Assembly (NCBI GenBank): GCA_958295905.1
Contig: OY282382.1
Coordinates: forward strand, 434,001-498,000
DNA: 64,000 bases
Source: an uncultured Vicinamibacterales bacterium
GTDB lineage: Bacteria > Acidobacteriota > Vicinamibacteria > Vicinamibacterales > UBA8438
Reading direction: 5' to 3'
Each line of letters opens with the position of its first letter. Within the stretch, counting starts at the first letter, position 1. This document shows positions 32,185-63,324 of the stretch, in pieces. The notes under the pieces were generated by a model. The model did no database searches. It saw only the letters and a program-made list of their open reading frames with translations, and was not told the DNA's origin. The position numbers were made by a program, and so were the translations under genes.

Positions 32185-32550
32185 ATGACGAGGGCGCAGA
32201 TCGTGTGGACGGTAGTCGGCTCGGCGTTGGCGTTGATGGCCACGTCGAGCAGCGCGGCGTGGATCGTGAGTCGGACGATCGCGGAGTCCGAAGCCCGGTT
32301 GCGCACCGAGATTCAGACCGTGAACCGGCGCATCGACGCCTTGGACGACAGGATGCACCAACGCATCGACGCCTTGGACGATACGGTGCACCAGCGCATC
32401 GACGCCTTGGACGACAGGATGAACCAGCGCCTCGACGCCTTGGACAATACGATGAACCAGCGCCTCGACGCCTTGAACGATACGGTGAACCAGCGCATCC
32501 ACTCGGTGAACCAGCGCCTCGACACCGTGCTGCTCGACGGCGGACGCTGA
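32185..32550 (+). CDS. Membrane-anchored coiled-coil protein with 11-residue repeats
   Basis: The 121-residue protein has one N-terminal membrane helix (IVWTVVGSALALMATSSSAAWIV) and then a coiled coil made of at least five 11-residue units of type R-I/L-D-A-L-D-D-x-M/V-x-Q, from about residue 49 to 105. At the DNA level this is a 33-base tandem repeat from about 32329. Eleven-residue repeats form right-handed or nearly straight coils. Similar short proteins accompany DUF1640-type genes; no function is known to me. GGGAGGGA precedes ATG 32185. Repeat number could vary between strains. Confidence 0.75.
   Translation: MTRAQIVWTVVGSALALMATSSSAAWIVSRTIAESEARLRTEIQTVNRRIDALDDRMHQRIDALDDTVHQRIDALDDRMNQRLDALDNTMNQRLDALNDTVNQRIHSVNQRLDTVLLDGGR
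32329..32500 (+). repeat. 33-base in-frame tandem repeats
   Basis: Units of the form CGCMTCGACGCCTTGGACGA, with alternating AGGATG and TACGGTG variants, recur five times with a 33-base period, plus a degenerate sixth unit. Confidence 0.9.
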
Positions 32551-56926: not shown

Positions 56927-58147
56927 ATGGCTCGACGGTGGCTGTTGGCCGGTCTGTGCGCGGCGTTCGGCGCTCCGGGCGCCGCACAGTCGCTGACCGA
57001 GGCCGAGGCGGTGGCGAAAATGCGGGCGGAGTATCCGCAGGTGATCGCCCTGCGGCTCGGCGTGCGCGAGCTGGAAGCGGACGCCCGCGAGCGGACCCTG
57101 CCGGCCAACCCGGCCGTTGCCTATACGCGGGAAGACGCCGGCGCGGCGGTCGACGACTTCCTGCTCGTGAGCCAGCAGATGCCCCTGTGGGGCCGCCGGC
57201 GGCTGATGGGCGAGGCGGCCCGGCACGCGGTCTCGGCCCGGGCGGCCGACGTCGACGCCCGGCTGTTGGCGGTCGAGGCCGAGCTGCGCCACGTGTTCAC
57301 CGATCTCCTGCTGGCGCAGGACCGGGTGCGGTCGCTCGAAGCCGGCTTGGACCGGCTCGACGAGCTGATCGCGGTGCTCCGCACGCGCGAAGAGCAGGGC
57401 GAGGGCTCTCGGTTCGATCGGCTGCGCGCCGAGCGCGAAGGGGCCGAGGTCGACGCCGACCTCGCGCTGGCCCGCATCGACCGCCGGCGGGCCCAGGCGC
57501 GGCTTGCCGCCTTCCTTGCCGAGGGCACCGACCCCGACGGGTTGACGGCAGCGGGCGGTCTCGACGACTACGCGGTTCCTCCGATCCCGGCGCCCGCGGC
57601 GGCGCAGCTTCCCAAGGGCCGCCAGGAATATCGCGCGCTGGGCCTCGAGGCCCAGCGGTGGGGGGCCGAGGAGCGCGCCGCGCGCCGCCTGCGGCTGCCC
57701 ACCGCCCAGGTGACGGGAGGCATGAAGCGGAGCCGCGTGCTCGGGCCGATGGACACCGGGTTCGTCCTTGGCGCCTCGGTGTCGTTGCCCCTGTTCAACC
57801 GCGGGCAGGCGCAGGCGGCGCGGGCCGCGGCGGCCCGCGCGCGCCTCGAGGCCGAGCGCCGGACCCTCGCGGCCCGCATCGCGGCCGAGGTCCACGCCGC
57901 GTCGGCCGCCGCGGTCGGCGCGCGCGCGCTGGCCGATCGCTACCGGGCCGACTCGGTGTCCCGCGCCGACGAGCTCGTGGCCATCGCGACCGCGGCCTAC
58001 GAGGAAGGCGAGTTCGGCATCCTGGAGCTGCTCGACGCCCATCGGGTCAGCCTGAGCGCGAACCTGCGGTCGCTCGATCTGTCGGCGGCGGCGCGCCGGG
58101 GCGCCGTCGCGCTCGACCGCGCGGCCGGCCGGGGGATGACGCCATGA
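56927..58147 (+). CDS. TolC family outer-membrane efflux protein (CzcC-like)
   Basis: The 406-residue protein has a signal peptide (LLAGLCAAFGAPGAAQ) and two OEP repeats of helix pairs: LTEAEAVAKMRAEYPQV, QQMPLWGRRRLMGEAARH, then SLPLFNRGQAQAARAAAARARLEAE and EEGEFGILELLDAHR. It forms the outer channel of the metal efflux complex built with the next two genes. ATG 56927 has AGGAG nine bases upstream. Its final stop overlaps the start of the first repeat unit as CCATGAGG, i.e. ATGA coupling. The last 25 residues are themselves copied in the array that follows. Confidence 0.9.
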   Translation: MARRWLLAGLCAAFGAPGAAQSLTEAEAVAKMRAEYPQVIALRLGVRELEADARERTLPANPAVAYTREDAGAAVDDFLLVSQQMPLWGRRRLMGEAARHAVSARAADVDARLLAVEAELRHVFTDLLLAQDRVRSLEAGLDRLDELIAVLRTREEQGEGSRFDRLRAEREGAEVDADLALARIDRRRAQARLAAFLAEGTDPDGLTAAGGLDDYAVPPIPAPAAAQLPKGRQEYRALGLEAQRWGAEERAARRLRLPTAQVTGGMKRSRVLGPMDTGFVLGASVSLPLFNRGQAQAARAAAARARLEAERRTLAARIAAEVHAASAAAVGARALADRYRADSVSRADELVAIATAAYEEGEFGILELLDAHRVSLSANLRSLDLSAAARRGAVALDRAAGRGMTP

Positions 58148-58640
58148 GGAACACCATGCCCGCGGCGGGCAGGCTGTCGGCGGCGGCGTTGCCGTATCTG
58201 TCGGCGGCGGCGCGCCGGGGCGCCGTCGCGCTCGACCGCGCGGCCGGCCGGGGGATGACGCCATGAGGAACACCATGCCCGCGGCGGCGTTGTTGTCGGC
58301 GGCGGCGTTGCCGTATCTGTCAGCGCCGTCGCGCCGGGGCGCCGTCGCGCTCGACCGCGCGGCCGGCCGGGGGATGACACCATGAGGAACACCATGCAAC
58401 GCGGCGGGCAGGCTGTCGGCGGCGGCGTTGCCGTATCTGTCGGCGGCGGCGCGCCGGGGCGCCGTCGCGCTCGACCGCACGGCCGGCCGGGGGATGACAC
58501 CATGAGGAACACCATGCAACGCGGCGGGCCGGCTGTCGGCGGCGGCATTGCTGTATCTGTCGGCGGCCGACCCGCCGGGGCGCCGTTGCGCTCGACCGCG
58601 CGGCCGGCCGGGGGATGACGCCATGAGGAACACCATGCCC
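58079..58640 (+). repeat. Tandem array of about 120-base units at the tolC-adaptor junction
   Basis: CCATGAGGAACACCATGC occurs at ATG positions 58144, 58263, 58382, 58502 and 58623 (spacings 119, 119, 120, 121). Each unit contains the tolC tail coding sequence and the adaptor start. The first unit encodes a 40-residue peptide ending TGA that overlaps the next ATG; the second does the same. Confidence 0.95.
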
Positions 58641-60167
58641 GCGGCGGCGTTGTTGTCGGCGGCGGCGTTGCTGTCGGCGTGCGGGTCGGCGCCGCCGCCG
58701 GAGGAGGCCCCGCAAGAGGAGCCGGCGCCGGTCGTCGTGAGCCGGTGGACCGACCGCAGCGAGCTGTTCGTCGAGTTCCCGCCGCTCGTCGCGGGGGCCA
58801 CGAGCCGGTTCGCGATCCACTTCACCGACCTCGCAACCTTCGAGCCGTTGCGGGAGGGCCGGGCGACGGTGCGCCTGACCGGCGTGCGCGCGCGCGCGGA
58901 GGAGTTCGTGGTCGACGGCCCCGGCCGCCCCGGCATTTTCGGGGTCGACGTCACCCCGGCCGCCGCGGGCCGCGCGCGGCTCGAGCTGCTGCTGGACGCG
59001 GCGGCGGTGCGCGACCGCCACGACCTCGGCGAGGTCACGGTGCTGACGGCGGCGCAGGCGGTGACGTTGCCGCCCGCGGCCGAGGAGGAGGACGGCACGG
59101 TCCCGTTCCTCAAGGAGCAGCAATGGTCGCTCGACTTCGCGACCGCGGTGGCCCGCCGGCGATCGATGGCCGCCGGCCTCGACATCCCCGCCCAGATCCA
59201 GCCGCGCACCGGCGGGCAGGCCGAGGTGACGACCCCGGTGGCGGGCCGGCTCGCCGCCGACCTGCCGGCCCGGCCCGTCGGGTCCGTCGTGGGCCGAGGC
59301 GACACCCTGGCCCAGATCGTCCCCCGCAGCGGGCACGCCGACGACCGCCCCGCCCTCGAGCTGGCGGTGGCCGAGGCGCGCGACGCGCTGGAGCTGGCGC
59401 GGGCGGAGCACGCGCGGGTCGAGCGGCTGGTCGAAGTCGGCGCGCTTCCGGCGCGCCGCCGGCTCGAGGCGCGGCTCGCGGCGCAGACGGCCGGGGCCCG
59501 GTTGACGGCGGCCGAGGCGCATCTCGCCCAGCTCGACTCGACGCGGCGGGGCGAGGGGGACGGCACCGAGGATACGCGGTTCGTGCTGCGCGCGCCGATG
59601 CGCGGCGTGGTCGCAGAGTCGGCGGCCACCCCCGGGGCCAGCGTCGACGAGGGCGCGAGGCTGTTCACGCTCATCGCGATCGACCGCGTCCACGTCGTCG
59701 GCGCGTTGCCCGAGGCGGCCCTGCCGCGTCTCGCCGAGATCGCGCGGGCCGAGCTCGAGGTGCCGGGGGCGGGGGCGCCGGCGCCCCTCGAGCGCCTGGT
59801 GACGGTGGGACGCGTGGTCGACGGCGACACCCGGACCGTCCCCATCATCTACGAGCTGCCCAACCCGGGGCGCGGGCTCGCCATCGGCCAGGCCGTCACC
59901 CTCCGCGTCTTCGGCGCTTCGAGGGAGGATGCGGTCACCGTGCCCGCGGGCGCGATCGTCGACGACGGCGGCCAGCCGGTGGTCTTCGTCCAGGTCGGCG
60001 GCGAGAGCTTCGAGCGGCGCCCGGTCAGGATCGGTCATCGCGAGGGCGGGGACGTCCAGGTGATCGGGGACGTCGCGGCGGGCGACCGGGTGGTCACGGT
60101 GGGGGCGCCGTTGATCCGCCTCGCGGCGCTCTCGCCGCAGGCGCCGGCTCACGGACATACGCACTGA
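58623..60167 (+). CDS. RND efflux periplasmic adaptor (CzcB/CusB-like)
   Basis: The 514-residue protein has a lipobox (LLSAC, Cys about residue 20), an extra N-terminal beta domain (about 30-150) and then the adaptor core: AEVTTPVAGRLAADLPARPVGSVVGRGDTL (barrel-sandwich), ALELAVAEARDALELARAEHARVERLVE (coiled coil), LRAPMRGVVAES and VPAGAIVDDGGQPVVFVQ. The tail HGHTH is His-rich and could bind metal. It links the inner RND pump to TolC. The last of five repeated ATG copies is its start. Confidence 0.9.
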   Translation: MRNTMPAAALLSAAALLSACGSAPPPEEAPQEEPAPVVVSRWTDRSELFVEFPPLVAGATSRFAIHFTDLATFEPLREGRATVRLTGVRARAEEFVVDGPGRPGIFGVDVTPAAAGRARLELLLDAAAVRDRHDLGEVTVLTAAQAVTLPPAAEEEDGTVPFLKEQQWSLDFATAVARRRSMAAGLDIPAQIQPRTGGQAEVTTPVAGRLAADLPARPVGSVVGRGDTLAQIVPRSGHADDRPALELAVAEARDALELARAEHARVERLVEVGALPARRRLEARLAAQTAGARLTAAEAHLAQLDSTRRGEGDGTEDTRFVLRAPMRGVVAESAATPGASVDEGARLFTLIAIDRVHVVGALPEAALPRLAEIARAELEVPGAGAPAPLERLVTVGRVVDGDTRTVPIIYELPNPGRGLAIGQAVTLRVFGASREDAVTVPAGAIVDDGGQPVVFVQVGGESFERRPVRIGHREGGDVQVIGDVAAGDRVVTVGAPLIRLAALSPQAPAHGHTH

Positions 60168-60237: not shown

Positions 60238-63200
60238 ATGTTGGATGCGCTCATTCGTTGGTCGTTGCGCAACCGCTTGGCGGTGCTCGCGGGCGCCGGC
60301 GCGTTCCTCGTGTGGGGCGGCGTCGTCCTGCGGCAGATGCCGGTCGACGTGCTGCCGGACCTGACCGCGCCGACGGTGACGGTGCTCGTCGATGGGCAGG
60401 GCATGGCCCCCACCGACATGGAGGCGCTCGTCACCCTGCCCATCGAGGCGGTGATGAACGGCGCGTCGGGGGTGCGCCGGGTGCGCTCGGCCACCGCCGT
60501 CGGGCTCGCGGTGGTCTGGGTCGACTTCGACTGGGGGGAGGACATCTACCGGGCCCGCCAGACCGTGGCCGAGAAGTTGTCGTCGGCCGTCCCCGCCCTG
60601 CCCGACGCGATCGCGCCGCCGGTCCTCGCGCCGGTGTCCTCGATCATGGGCGAGATCATGTTCGTGGCGCTGGAGTCGTCGGCGCATTCGCCCATCGACC
60701 TGCGCACCACCGCCGACGTGGTCGTCCGGCGGCGGCTCCTGGCCGCCCCCGGCGTCGCCCAGGTGACGGTGATCGGCGGCGATCGCCGCCAGTTCGAGGT
60801 GCTCGTCGAATCCGATCGGCTGTCCGACTACGGGCTGTCGCTCACCGCGGTCGAAGACGCGCTGCGGCGCGCCAACCGGAACACGTCGGCCGGGTTCAGG
60901 CAGGCGGGGGGCCAGGAGTACCTGATTCAGGGGGTGGGCCGGCTGACCGACGTCGAAGCCATCGCCGCGACGGTCATCGGGGCGCGCGGCACCCGCCCCA
61001 TCCGGGTCGCAGACGTGGCCGCGGTCGAGATGGGAGCCGCACTCCGCCGCGGAGATGGATCGCGCAACGGGCGGCCCGCCGTCATTCTCGGCATCCACCG
61101 GCAGCCCGACGTCAACACGCTGGCGCTGACGCGCGAGCTCGACCGCGTGCTCGACGACGTTCAGGCCGGTCTGCCGGCCGGCATGCAGCTCGACACGCGG
61201 CTGTTCCGGCAGGCCGACTTCATCGAGCTCTCGATGCGCAACCTGACCCGCGCCCTGCGGGACGGCACCCTGCTCGTGGTCGCGGTGACCCTGCTCTTCC
61301 TCGCCAGCGTGCGGGCCGGGGCCATCACCCTGCTCGCCATCCCCCTGTCGCTCCTGGCCGCGGTGGTCGGGCTCCGCGCCCTGGGGCTGTCCATCAACAG
61401 CATGACCCTCGGGGGCATGGCCATCGCGGTCGGGGCCCTCGTCGACGACGCCATCATCGACGTCGAGAACGTCGGCCGGCGCCTGCGCGAGAACGCGCGC
61501 CGGCCGGCCGCGCGGCAGCGGCCGCGGCTGCGCGTCGTATACGAGGCGAGCCGCGAGATCCGCACGTCCATCGTCTTCGCCACCCTGATCGTGGGGCTGG
61601 TGATGCTGCCGATCTTCTTTCTCTCCGGCGTCGAGGGGCGCCTGCTGCAGCCCTTGGGGCTCGCGTACCTCATCGCGCTGGCCGCGTCGCTGGTGGTGGC
61701 CCTGACCCTGACGCCGGTGCTCTGCTTCTATCTGCTGCCGGGCAGCAGCGCGTCGGCCGCCCACGAGCCGGGTCTGGCCGCCGCGGTGCGGCGCCGCTAC
61801 TCGCGGCTGCTGCCCCACGCCCTGCGGCGCCCGCGCACGGTGCTGGTGGCGGCGGGCGCCCTGTCGGCGGCGGCGGCGGCGGCGACGCCGTTCCTGGGGC
61901 GGGCGTTCCTGCCCGCGTTCAACGAGGGCGCCCTCGTGATCAGCGCGGTCACCCTGCCGGGGACGAGCCTGGCCGAGTCGAGCGCGCTCGGGAGCGCCAT
62001 CGAGCGGCTTCTGCTCGAGGTGCCCGAGGTGGCCGCCACCGGCCGGCGGACCGGTCGGGCCGAGCTCGACGAGCATGTGCAGGGGGTCGAGTCGGCCGAG
62101 ATCGATGTGCGGCTGGAAGAGGGGGGGCGGCCCCGCGAAGCCGTGCTCGACGAGATCCGGGAACGGCTGTCGCTGGTGCCGGGCACGAACGTCACCATCG
62201 GCCAGCCGATCTCGCACCGCATCGACCACATGCTCTCCGGCTCGCGGGCCAACGTGGCGGTCAAGATCTTCGGGGACGACCTCGCGGTGCTGCGCGGCCT
62301 CGGCGATCAGGCGGTCGCCGCGATGCAGGACATTCCCGGCGTCGTCGATCTGGCCATCGAGCCGCAGGCGGACATCCCCACCGTGCGGGTGGGGTTCGAC
62401 CGCGCCGCGCTCGCCCGGCACGGCTTGCCGGCCGGCGAGGCGGCCCTGACCCTGGAGACCGCGCTGCACGGCCGCGAGGTCGGGCAGGTGCTCGACGGCC
62501 AGGTCGCGGTGCCGCTGGTGGTGCGCTACCGCCGGGCGGACATGGCCGACCTCGACGCGCTGTGGGACACGCGCATCGACACCCCCGCGGGTCCCCGCGT
62601 TCCGCTGGGCAGCCTGGCCGCCATCGTCGAGGACCGCGGCCCGAACTTCATCGGGCGCGAGAACGTCCAGCGCCGGCTGGTGGTGACCTGCAACGTCGCG
62701 GGGCGCGACCTCGGCGGCACGGTGGCCGACATCCGGGAACGCGTGGAGACCGCGGTCGCGTTGCCGGCGGGCTATCGCGTGGAGCTCGGGGGGCAGTTCG
62801 AGGCCCAGGCCACGGCGGCGCGCGCCCTCCTGGGCCTCGGGCTGGCCGCGGTGGTCGGCATCTTCCTGCTGCTGGTCAGCGCGCTGCGGTCGCCCCGCGA
62901 CGCCGCCATCGTCATGATCAACCTGCCTCTGGCCCTCATCGGGGGGGTGGTCGGGGTCGCGCTCGGGGGCGGCACGCTGTCGATCGCGGCCCTCATCGGC
63001 TTCATCTCGCTCTTCGGCATCGCCACCCGCAACGGCATCATGGTGGTGACCCGCATCCGCCGGCTCCAGGACATCCAGGGCAGCGACGTCAGGGCGGCGG
63101 TGGTGCGGGGGGCGGTGGACCGGGTGGTCCCCGTTCTGATGACCGCGCTCTCGACCGGCCTCGCCCTGCTGCCGGTGGCGCTGGCGGCCGGCCGGCCGGG

Positions 63201-63324
63201 CAGCGAGATTCAGGCCCCGCTCGCCCTCGTCATCGTGTGCGGGCTCGTCTCGGCGACGGTCCTCAACATGTTCGTGGTGCCGACGGCCTACTTGGCCGCG
63301 GCCACCGCGCGGCAATCCGGCTGA
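60238..63324 (+). CDS. RND efflux permease, CzcA/CusA type (HME)
   Basis: The 1028-residue protein has the twelve-helix RND layout. RMPVDVLPDLTAPTVTV-like N-terminal loop, GMAIAVGALVDDAIIDVENV in TM4 with the paired Asp of the proton relay, FLSGVEGRLLQPLGLAYLIALAASL and, in the second half, PLALIGGVVGVALGGGTLSIAALIGFISLFGIATRNGIM mark the heavy-metal efflux (HME) branch. With the adaptor and TolC genes it forms a CzcCBA-like pump. Which cation it exports cannot be fixed from sequence alone; the conserved methionines typical of CusA Cu/Ag binding were not seen. Confidence 0.93.
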   Translation: MLDALIRWSLRNRLAVLAGAGAFLVWGGVVLRQMPVDVLPDLTAPTVTVLVDGQGMAPTDMEALVTLPIEAVMNGASGVRRVRSATAVGLAVVWVDFDWGEDIYRARQTVAEKLSSAVPALPDAIAPPVLAPVSSIMGEIMFVALESSAHSPIDLRTTADVVVRRRLLAAPGVAQVTVIGGDRRQFEVLVESDRLSDYGLSLTAVEDALRRANRNTSAGFRQAGGQEYLIQGVGRLTDVEAIAATVIGARGTRPIRVADVAAVEMGAALRRGDGSRNGRPAVILGIHRQPDVNTLALTRELDRVLDDVQAGLPAGMQLDTRLFRQADFIELSMRNLTRALRDGTLLVVAVTLLFLASVRAGAITLLAIPLSLLAAVVGLRALGLSINSMTLGGMAIAVGALVDDAIIDVENVGRRLRENARRPAARQRPRLRVVYEASREIRTSIVFATLIVGLVMLPIFFLSGVEGRLLQPLGLAYLIALAASLVVALTLTPVLCFYLLPGSSASAAHEPGLAAAVRRRYSRLLPHALRRPRTVLVAAGALSAAAAAATPFLGRAFLPAFNEGALVISAVTLPGTSLAESSALGSAIERLLLEVPEVAATGRRTGRAELDEHVQGVESAEIDVRLEEGGRPREAVLDEIRERLSLVPGTNVTIGQPISHRIDHMLSGSRANVAVKIFGDDLAVLRGLGDQAVAAMQDIPGVVDLAIEPQADIPTVRVGFDRAALARHGLPAGEAALTLETALHGREVGQVLDGQVAVPLVVRYRRADMADLDALWDTRIDTPAGPRVPLGSLAAIVEDRGPNFIGRENVQRRLVVTCNVAGRDLGGTVADIRERVETAVALPAGYRVELGGQFEAQATAARALLGLGLAAVVGIFLLLVSALRSPRDAAIVMINLPLALIGGVVGVALGGGTLSIAALIGFISLFGIATRNGIMVVTRIRRLQDIQGSDVRAAVVRGAVDRVVPVLMTALSTGLALLPVALAAGRPGSEIQAPLALVIVCGLVSATVLNMFVVPTAYLAAATARQSG

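Follow-up and report, generated by a model that had tools for sequence, protein, structure and literature searches.

A five-copy tandem array at the tolC-adaptor junction of an RND efflux operon, probably tolerated because each unit carries its own stop-start overlap

Mycobacterial interspersed repetitive units (MIRUs), such as those at senX3-regX3 (Supply et al. 1997, in the review PMC12548453), are short units between co-directional genes, each with an ORF whose ends overlap its neighbors, and coupling therefore largely survives MIRU insertion. Tandem repeats that vary in copy number have been reported in promoters of Mycobacterium tuberculosis (PMC12817950). It has also been established in E. 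coli and Haloferax that gene pairs with -4 overlaps are translationally coupled, and that this coupling is nearly lost once the gap between the genes is approximately 20-40 nt (PMC10666635). Here we describe a tandem array located within an operon that has features of all three.

The array was found in a window of 64,000 nt from a Vicinamibacteria (Acidobacteriota) genome, which is the whole stretch of DNA that was analyzed, in an operon on the plus strand. The first gene encodes a tolC-like outer-membrane efflux protein (56927-58147; Pfam OEP PF02321, E 1e-24) and is intact, with its TGA at 58145-58147 and a C-terminus, LSAAARRGAVALDRAAGRGMTP, that is alignable to those of relatives. The next, also intact, encodes the adaptor, a CusB/HlyD-type periplasmic lipoprotein with the lipobox LSAC (58623-60167; HlyD_D23, E 8e-16; HlyD_3, E 3e-14), whose own start is the ATG at 58623. 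The third encodes an RND transporter of the AcrB/CusA type (60238-63324; ACR_tran, E 2e-248). Between the two complete genes tolC and the adaptor gene, Tandem Repeats Finder detected an array on the plus strand at 58077-58671 with 5.0 copies, a period of 119, 92% matches and a score of 995, which was also recovered as direct-repeat families, and its five copies are arranged head to tail as in variable-number tandem repeats. The motif CCATGAGGAACACCATGC matched exactly at 58142, 58261, 58380, 58500 and 58621, with spacings of 119, 119, 120 and 121; it was absent from the rest of the window, and no match was obtained in 100 shuffles. Each unit of approximately 119 nt joins 67 nt from the 3' end of tolC to ~50 nt from the 5' end of the adaptor gene, opening in the tolC tail (ATCTGTCGGCGG...) and closing in the adaptor head (...GGCGTTGC). 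A preliminary description had already reported five copies with these spacings, each a tolC tail followed by an adaptor start, and both observations are borne out: the tolC-adaptor junction has indeed been duplicated. In a DNA search of the whole 6.3-Mb genome, the array was confined to one locus, apart from a single weakly significant match elsewhere (42 nt, 83%, E 6.7e-4), and the unit was not found in the viral contigs searched. The units are 89-97.5% identical in pairwise comparisons, and every one of them has private substitutions and indels. The sequence itself shows that the array originated when the stop-start junction of the tolC-adaptor-RND operon was duplicated locally in tandem.

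As an ATGA is present in every unit, a chain of mini-ORFs of 40, 40 and 78 aa spans the spacer on the plus strand. The first (58144-58266) opens within the ATGA at the tolC stop and ends in the next ATGA; there the second (58263-58385) starts, and its end lies in turn in the ATGA that contains the start of the third, at 58382. The third (58382-58618) extends across units 3 and 4, which it joins in a shifted frame, running in frame through the ATG of the fourth unit, and its TGA (58616-58618) falls 4 nt short of the adaptor ATG, so that the chain stays closed despite the one-base insertions of the later units. That the chain is unbroken across the 120- and 121-nt steps was missed in the preliminary description, which had correctly noted the two 40-aa ORFs with a TGA overlapping the next ATG, and its suggestion that ribosomes could re-start along the chain is plausible given the stop-start overlaps across the array. 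All stop-start links in the window lie within -4 to +4 nt, inside the range of about -8 to +10 nt used for coupled pairs (PMC10666635). When the four extra units were removed in silico in every combination, the adaptor start could still be reached in all 16 subsets, by a -4 overlap, at +4 nt, or, with unit 3 last, by in-frame read-in that gives the adaptor a 40-aa extension.

Comparison with relatives suggested how the junction looked before it was expanded. One 4-nt overlap (ATGA) forms the usual junction in family members and distant phyla alike. The stop-start distance was -4, with ATG, in 18 of the 19 related loci with a resolvable (long) upstream ORF, which came from family members, other Acidobacteriota, Nitrosomonas, Methylobacter and an Escarpia endosymbiont, and therefore the single overlap is considered ancestral; one of the 18 belongs to the sister species G001, and the upstream ORF there is the mini-ORF that spans the spacer. 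Judged from this sequence pattern, a single -4 overlap at the tolC-adaptor junction is probably useful. The junction was expanded only in the genus of the window, in all three species compared: the copies are fresh in the window's own species and decayed in the sister species G001 and G002. The spacers of G001 (211 nt) and G002 (303 nt) have sequence in common, and both contain decayed copies of the tolC tail, of which the clearest is a near-identical 39-nt stretch in G001. The G001 spacer is bridged by a 72-codon ORF running from GTGA to ATGA, and that of G002 by ORFs of 13 and 86 codons with spacings of 0 and +4. The most divergent units in the window (89%) differ from each other approximately as much as the adaptor genes of the species do (89%). 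Furthermore, the units are mosaic: the head of unit 2 is that of the real adaptor gene, units 1, 3 and 4 have another type of head, and the tails of units 1 and 2 are identical. Such a mosaic fits duplication or conversion that took place repeatedly, acting either on an array ancestral to the genus or anew.

Tandem duplication is not limited to this junction. Arrays with a period of at least 60 nt numbered 60 in 1.26 Mb of the window's own genome, G000 (4.7 per 100 kb), 6 in 93 kb of G001 (6.4 per 100 kb) and 6 in 96 kb of G002 (6.2 per 100 kb), compared with 5 in 0.80 Mb from five genomes belonging to other genera in the order (~0.6 per 100 kb); several of the relatives were assembled from short reads, a procedure that can collapse repeats, and the contrast in density may therefore be overstated, but the two single-contig genomes are also poor in arrays (0 and 1 in 200 kb each), which lessens this concern. 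The densities show that the junction array is one case of a tandem-duplication process common in the genus. With periods of 60-500 nt, the genus has about 5-6 tandem arrays per 100 kb, approximately eight times the density in these five genomes. That the arrays stem from a lost recA or mutS was rejected, both genes being present in 7 of the 7 genomes tested, and no report of tandem repeats in Vicinamibacter was found in a literature search.

Several other repeats were observed. A second duplicated junction, head to tail with a period of 119 x 2, is located at G000:C1:2207975-2208208 (L153), and its unit combines the end of an SDR-like gene (GGLEM*) with ~33 codons from the start of an XRE-type regulator, both names being based on translation only. 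A unit of 170 bp is repeated 3.5 times with 97% identity at G000:C1:2080278-2080870 (L147) and reaches the start of a predicted gene. In the window, a 127-bp unit is present twice (96%) at 2587-2838 between two predicted convergent genes, and a 33-bp unit is repeated ~5.4 times at 32321-32499 within a predicted minus-strand gene. A dispersed GC-rich repeat of ~50 bp (CCCGGAAATCGTCGCCGGCGGCGCCGATGG...) had 57 matches genome-wide, for example at G000:C1:157662-157990, and in places it is tandem with an 83-bp spacing.

The explanation that we favor, with a probability of roughly 0.7, is that the junction array arose by local tandem duplication through the genus-wide process, is tolerated as the unit itself supplies the coupling signal, and is no on/off switch. 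The array would be tolerated because each unit reaches from the tail of tolC into the head of the adaptor gene, leaving both genes whole and re-supplying the ATGA; the anatomy is what was shown, and the tolerance is what we infer. The duplication process would have struck the stop-start junction, and ribosomes leaving tolC would, as expected from established termination-reinitiation, re-initiate at each ATGA, translate the throw-away ORFs of 40, 40 and 78 aa, and then reach the adaptor ATG. As the mosaic variants show, the units themselves were re-copied or converted among one another. The array is probably neutral, or it slightly lowers translation of the adaptor through cumulative loss at re-initiation, and most likely it is tolerated sequence rather than an on/off switch.

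Alternatively, the array could tune adaptor dose. A graded effect of copy number on the amount of adaptor is possible. It is unlikely, in our view, that selection keeps the array as a variable rheostat in which copy number shifts the adaptor:TolC ratio through ribosome loss at each re-initiation, and we would likewise put little weight on the locally grown overlap chain being a translational rheostat in which each unit lowers this ratio stepwise and recombination between units sets their number. The -4 overlap at the junction is conserved over phyla, and thus stoichiometry may matter; re-initiation is generally distance-dependent and below 100% (PMC10666635), and the junction is expanded in all three species of the genus compared. 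However, copy-number polymorphism was not seen with one genome compared per species, the junction copies are decayed in the sister species, tandem arrays are common throughout these genomes, and closure of the chain is expected without selection. Under the strictest rule, in which only overlaps of -4 to -1 were accepted, spacers with shuffled interiors still closed the chain in 65% (window), 95% (G001) and 61% (G002) of cases, and a perfect array given two random indels closed it in 98%; the real G002 chain, which depends on spacings of 0 and +4, fails this rule. The sequence here is 70% GC, and stops are rare. Chain bridging therefore requires no selection, and an unbroken chain is by itself no evidence for it. 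Selection for an unbroken chain thus found no support, as shuffled spacers commonly close too. Extra conservation of the stop-start core found none either: the difference seen by columns (Fisher P 0.019) was gone after clustered changes were merged, when the core was not significantly more conserved than other stretches (P 0.90, any window of that length).

It is quite improbable that the units act on transcription or RNA structure by duplicating a promoter, a terminator or a hairpin, as promoter tandem repeats that alter expression in M. tuberculosis (PMC12817950) might suggest; neither a sigma-70-like promoter nor a terminator was found in 57900-58800, and the predicted folding of the units was no better than that of shuffles (z -0.68 to 0.86). 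An origin of the array in the assembly itself is very improbable: the window does stem from one assembly, but the private substitutions and indels of the units make assembly stutter unlikely, and the junction is also expanded in two sister species that were assembled independently. Least credible of all is the phase-variable switch that the preliminary description had read from the 120- and 121-nt steps, in which gain or loss of units would turn adaptor expression on or off, since, even with unit lengths that differ modulo 3, the adaptor has its start downstream of the array and a ribosome is brought to it whichever subset of units is present, so that frame-based on/off phase variation is contradicted.

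As in the promoter repeats of M. tuberculosis, one of which is near the efflux gene efpA, the units lie head to tail beside genes, but those repeats are located in promoters and act on transcription (PMC12817950), whereas this array is an intra-operon series of stop-start overlaps with no sigma-70-like promoter. The ancestral junction, a plain -4 overlap, resembles that of ATGA termination-reinitiation gene pairs, but the array contains this overlap in multiple copies, which form a chain of four stop-to-start handovers (PMC6728339, PMC10666635). This indicates that an operon junction can grow by hundreds of bases with the stop-start contacts for translational coupling uncut, because the duplicated unit itself holds the coupling signal. 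An Acidobacteriota genus in which short tandem duplications are approximately eight times as dense as in related genera offers a natural system for their origin and tolerance. There is also a likeness to MIRUs, which likewise are short units between co-directional genes with an ORF per unit and -4 coupling to the neighbor (PMC12548453), and here the unit ORFs overlap through ATGA with tolC and with each other, while the last stop lies 4 nt from the adaptor ATG. In contrast to MIRUs, which are dispersed, apparently mobile and inserted at start codons (PMC12548453), the array unit was copied from the ends of the two flanking genes themselves and occurs at one locus genome-wide. By analogy, therefore, the array works like a MIRU yet is not one, and it may be regarded as a home-grown counterpart of the mycobacterial MIRUs.
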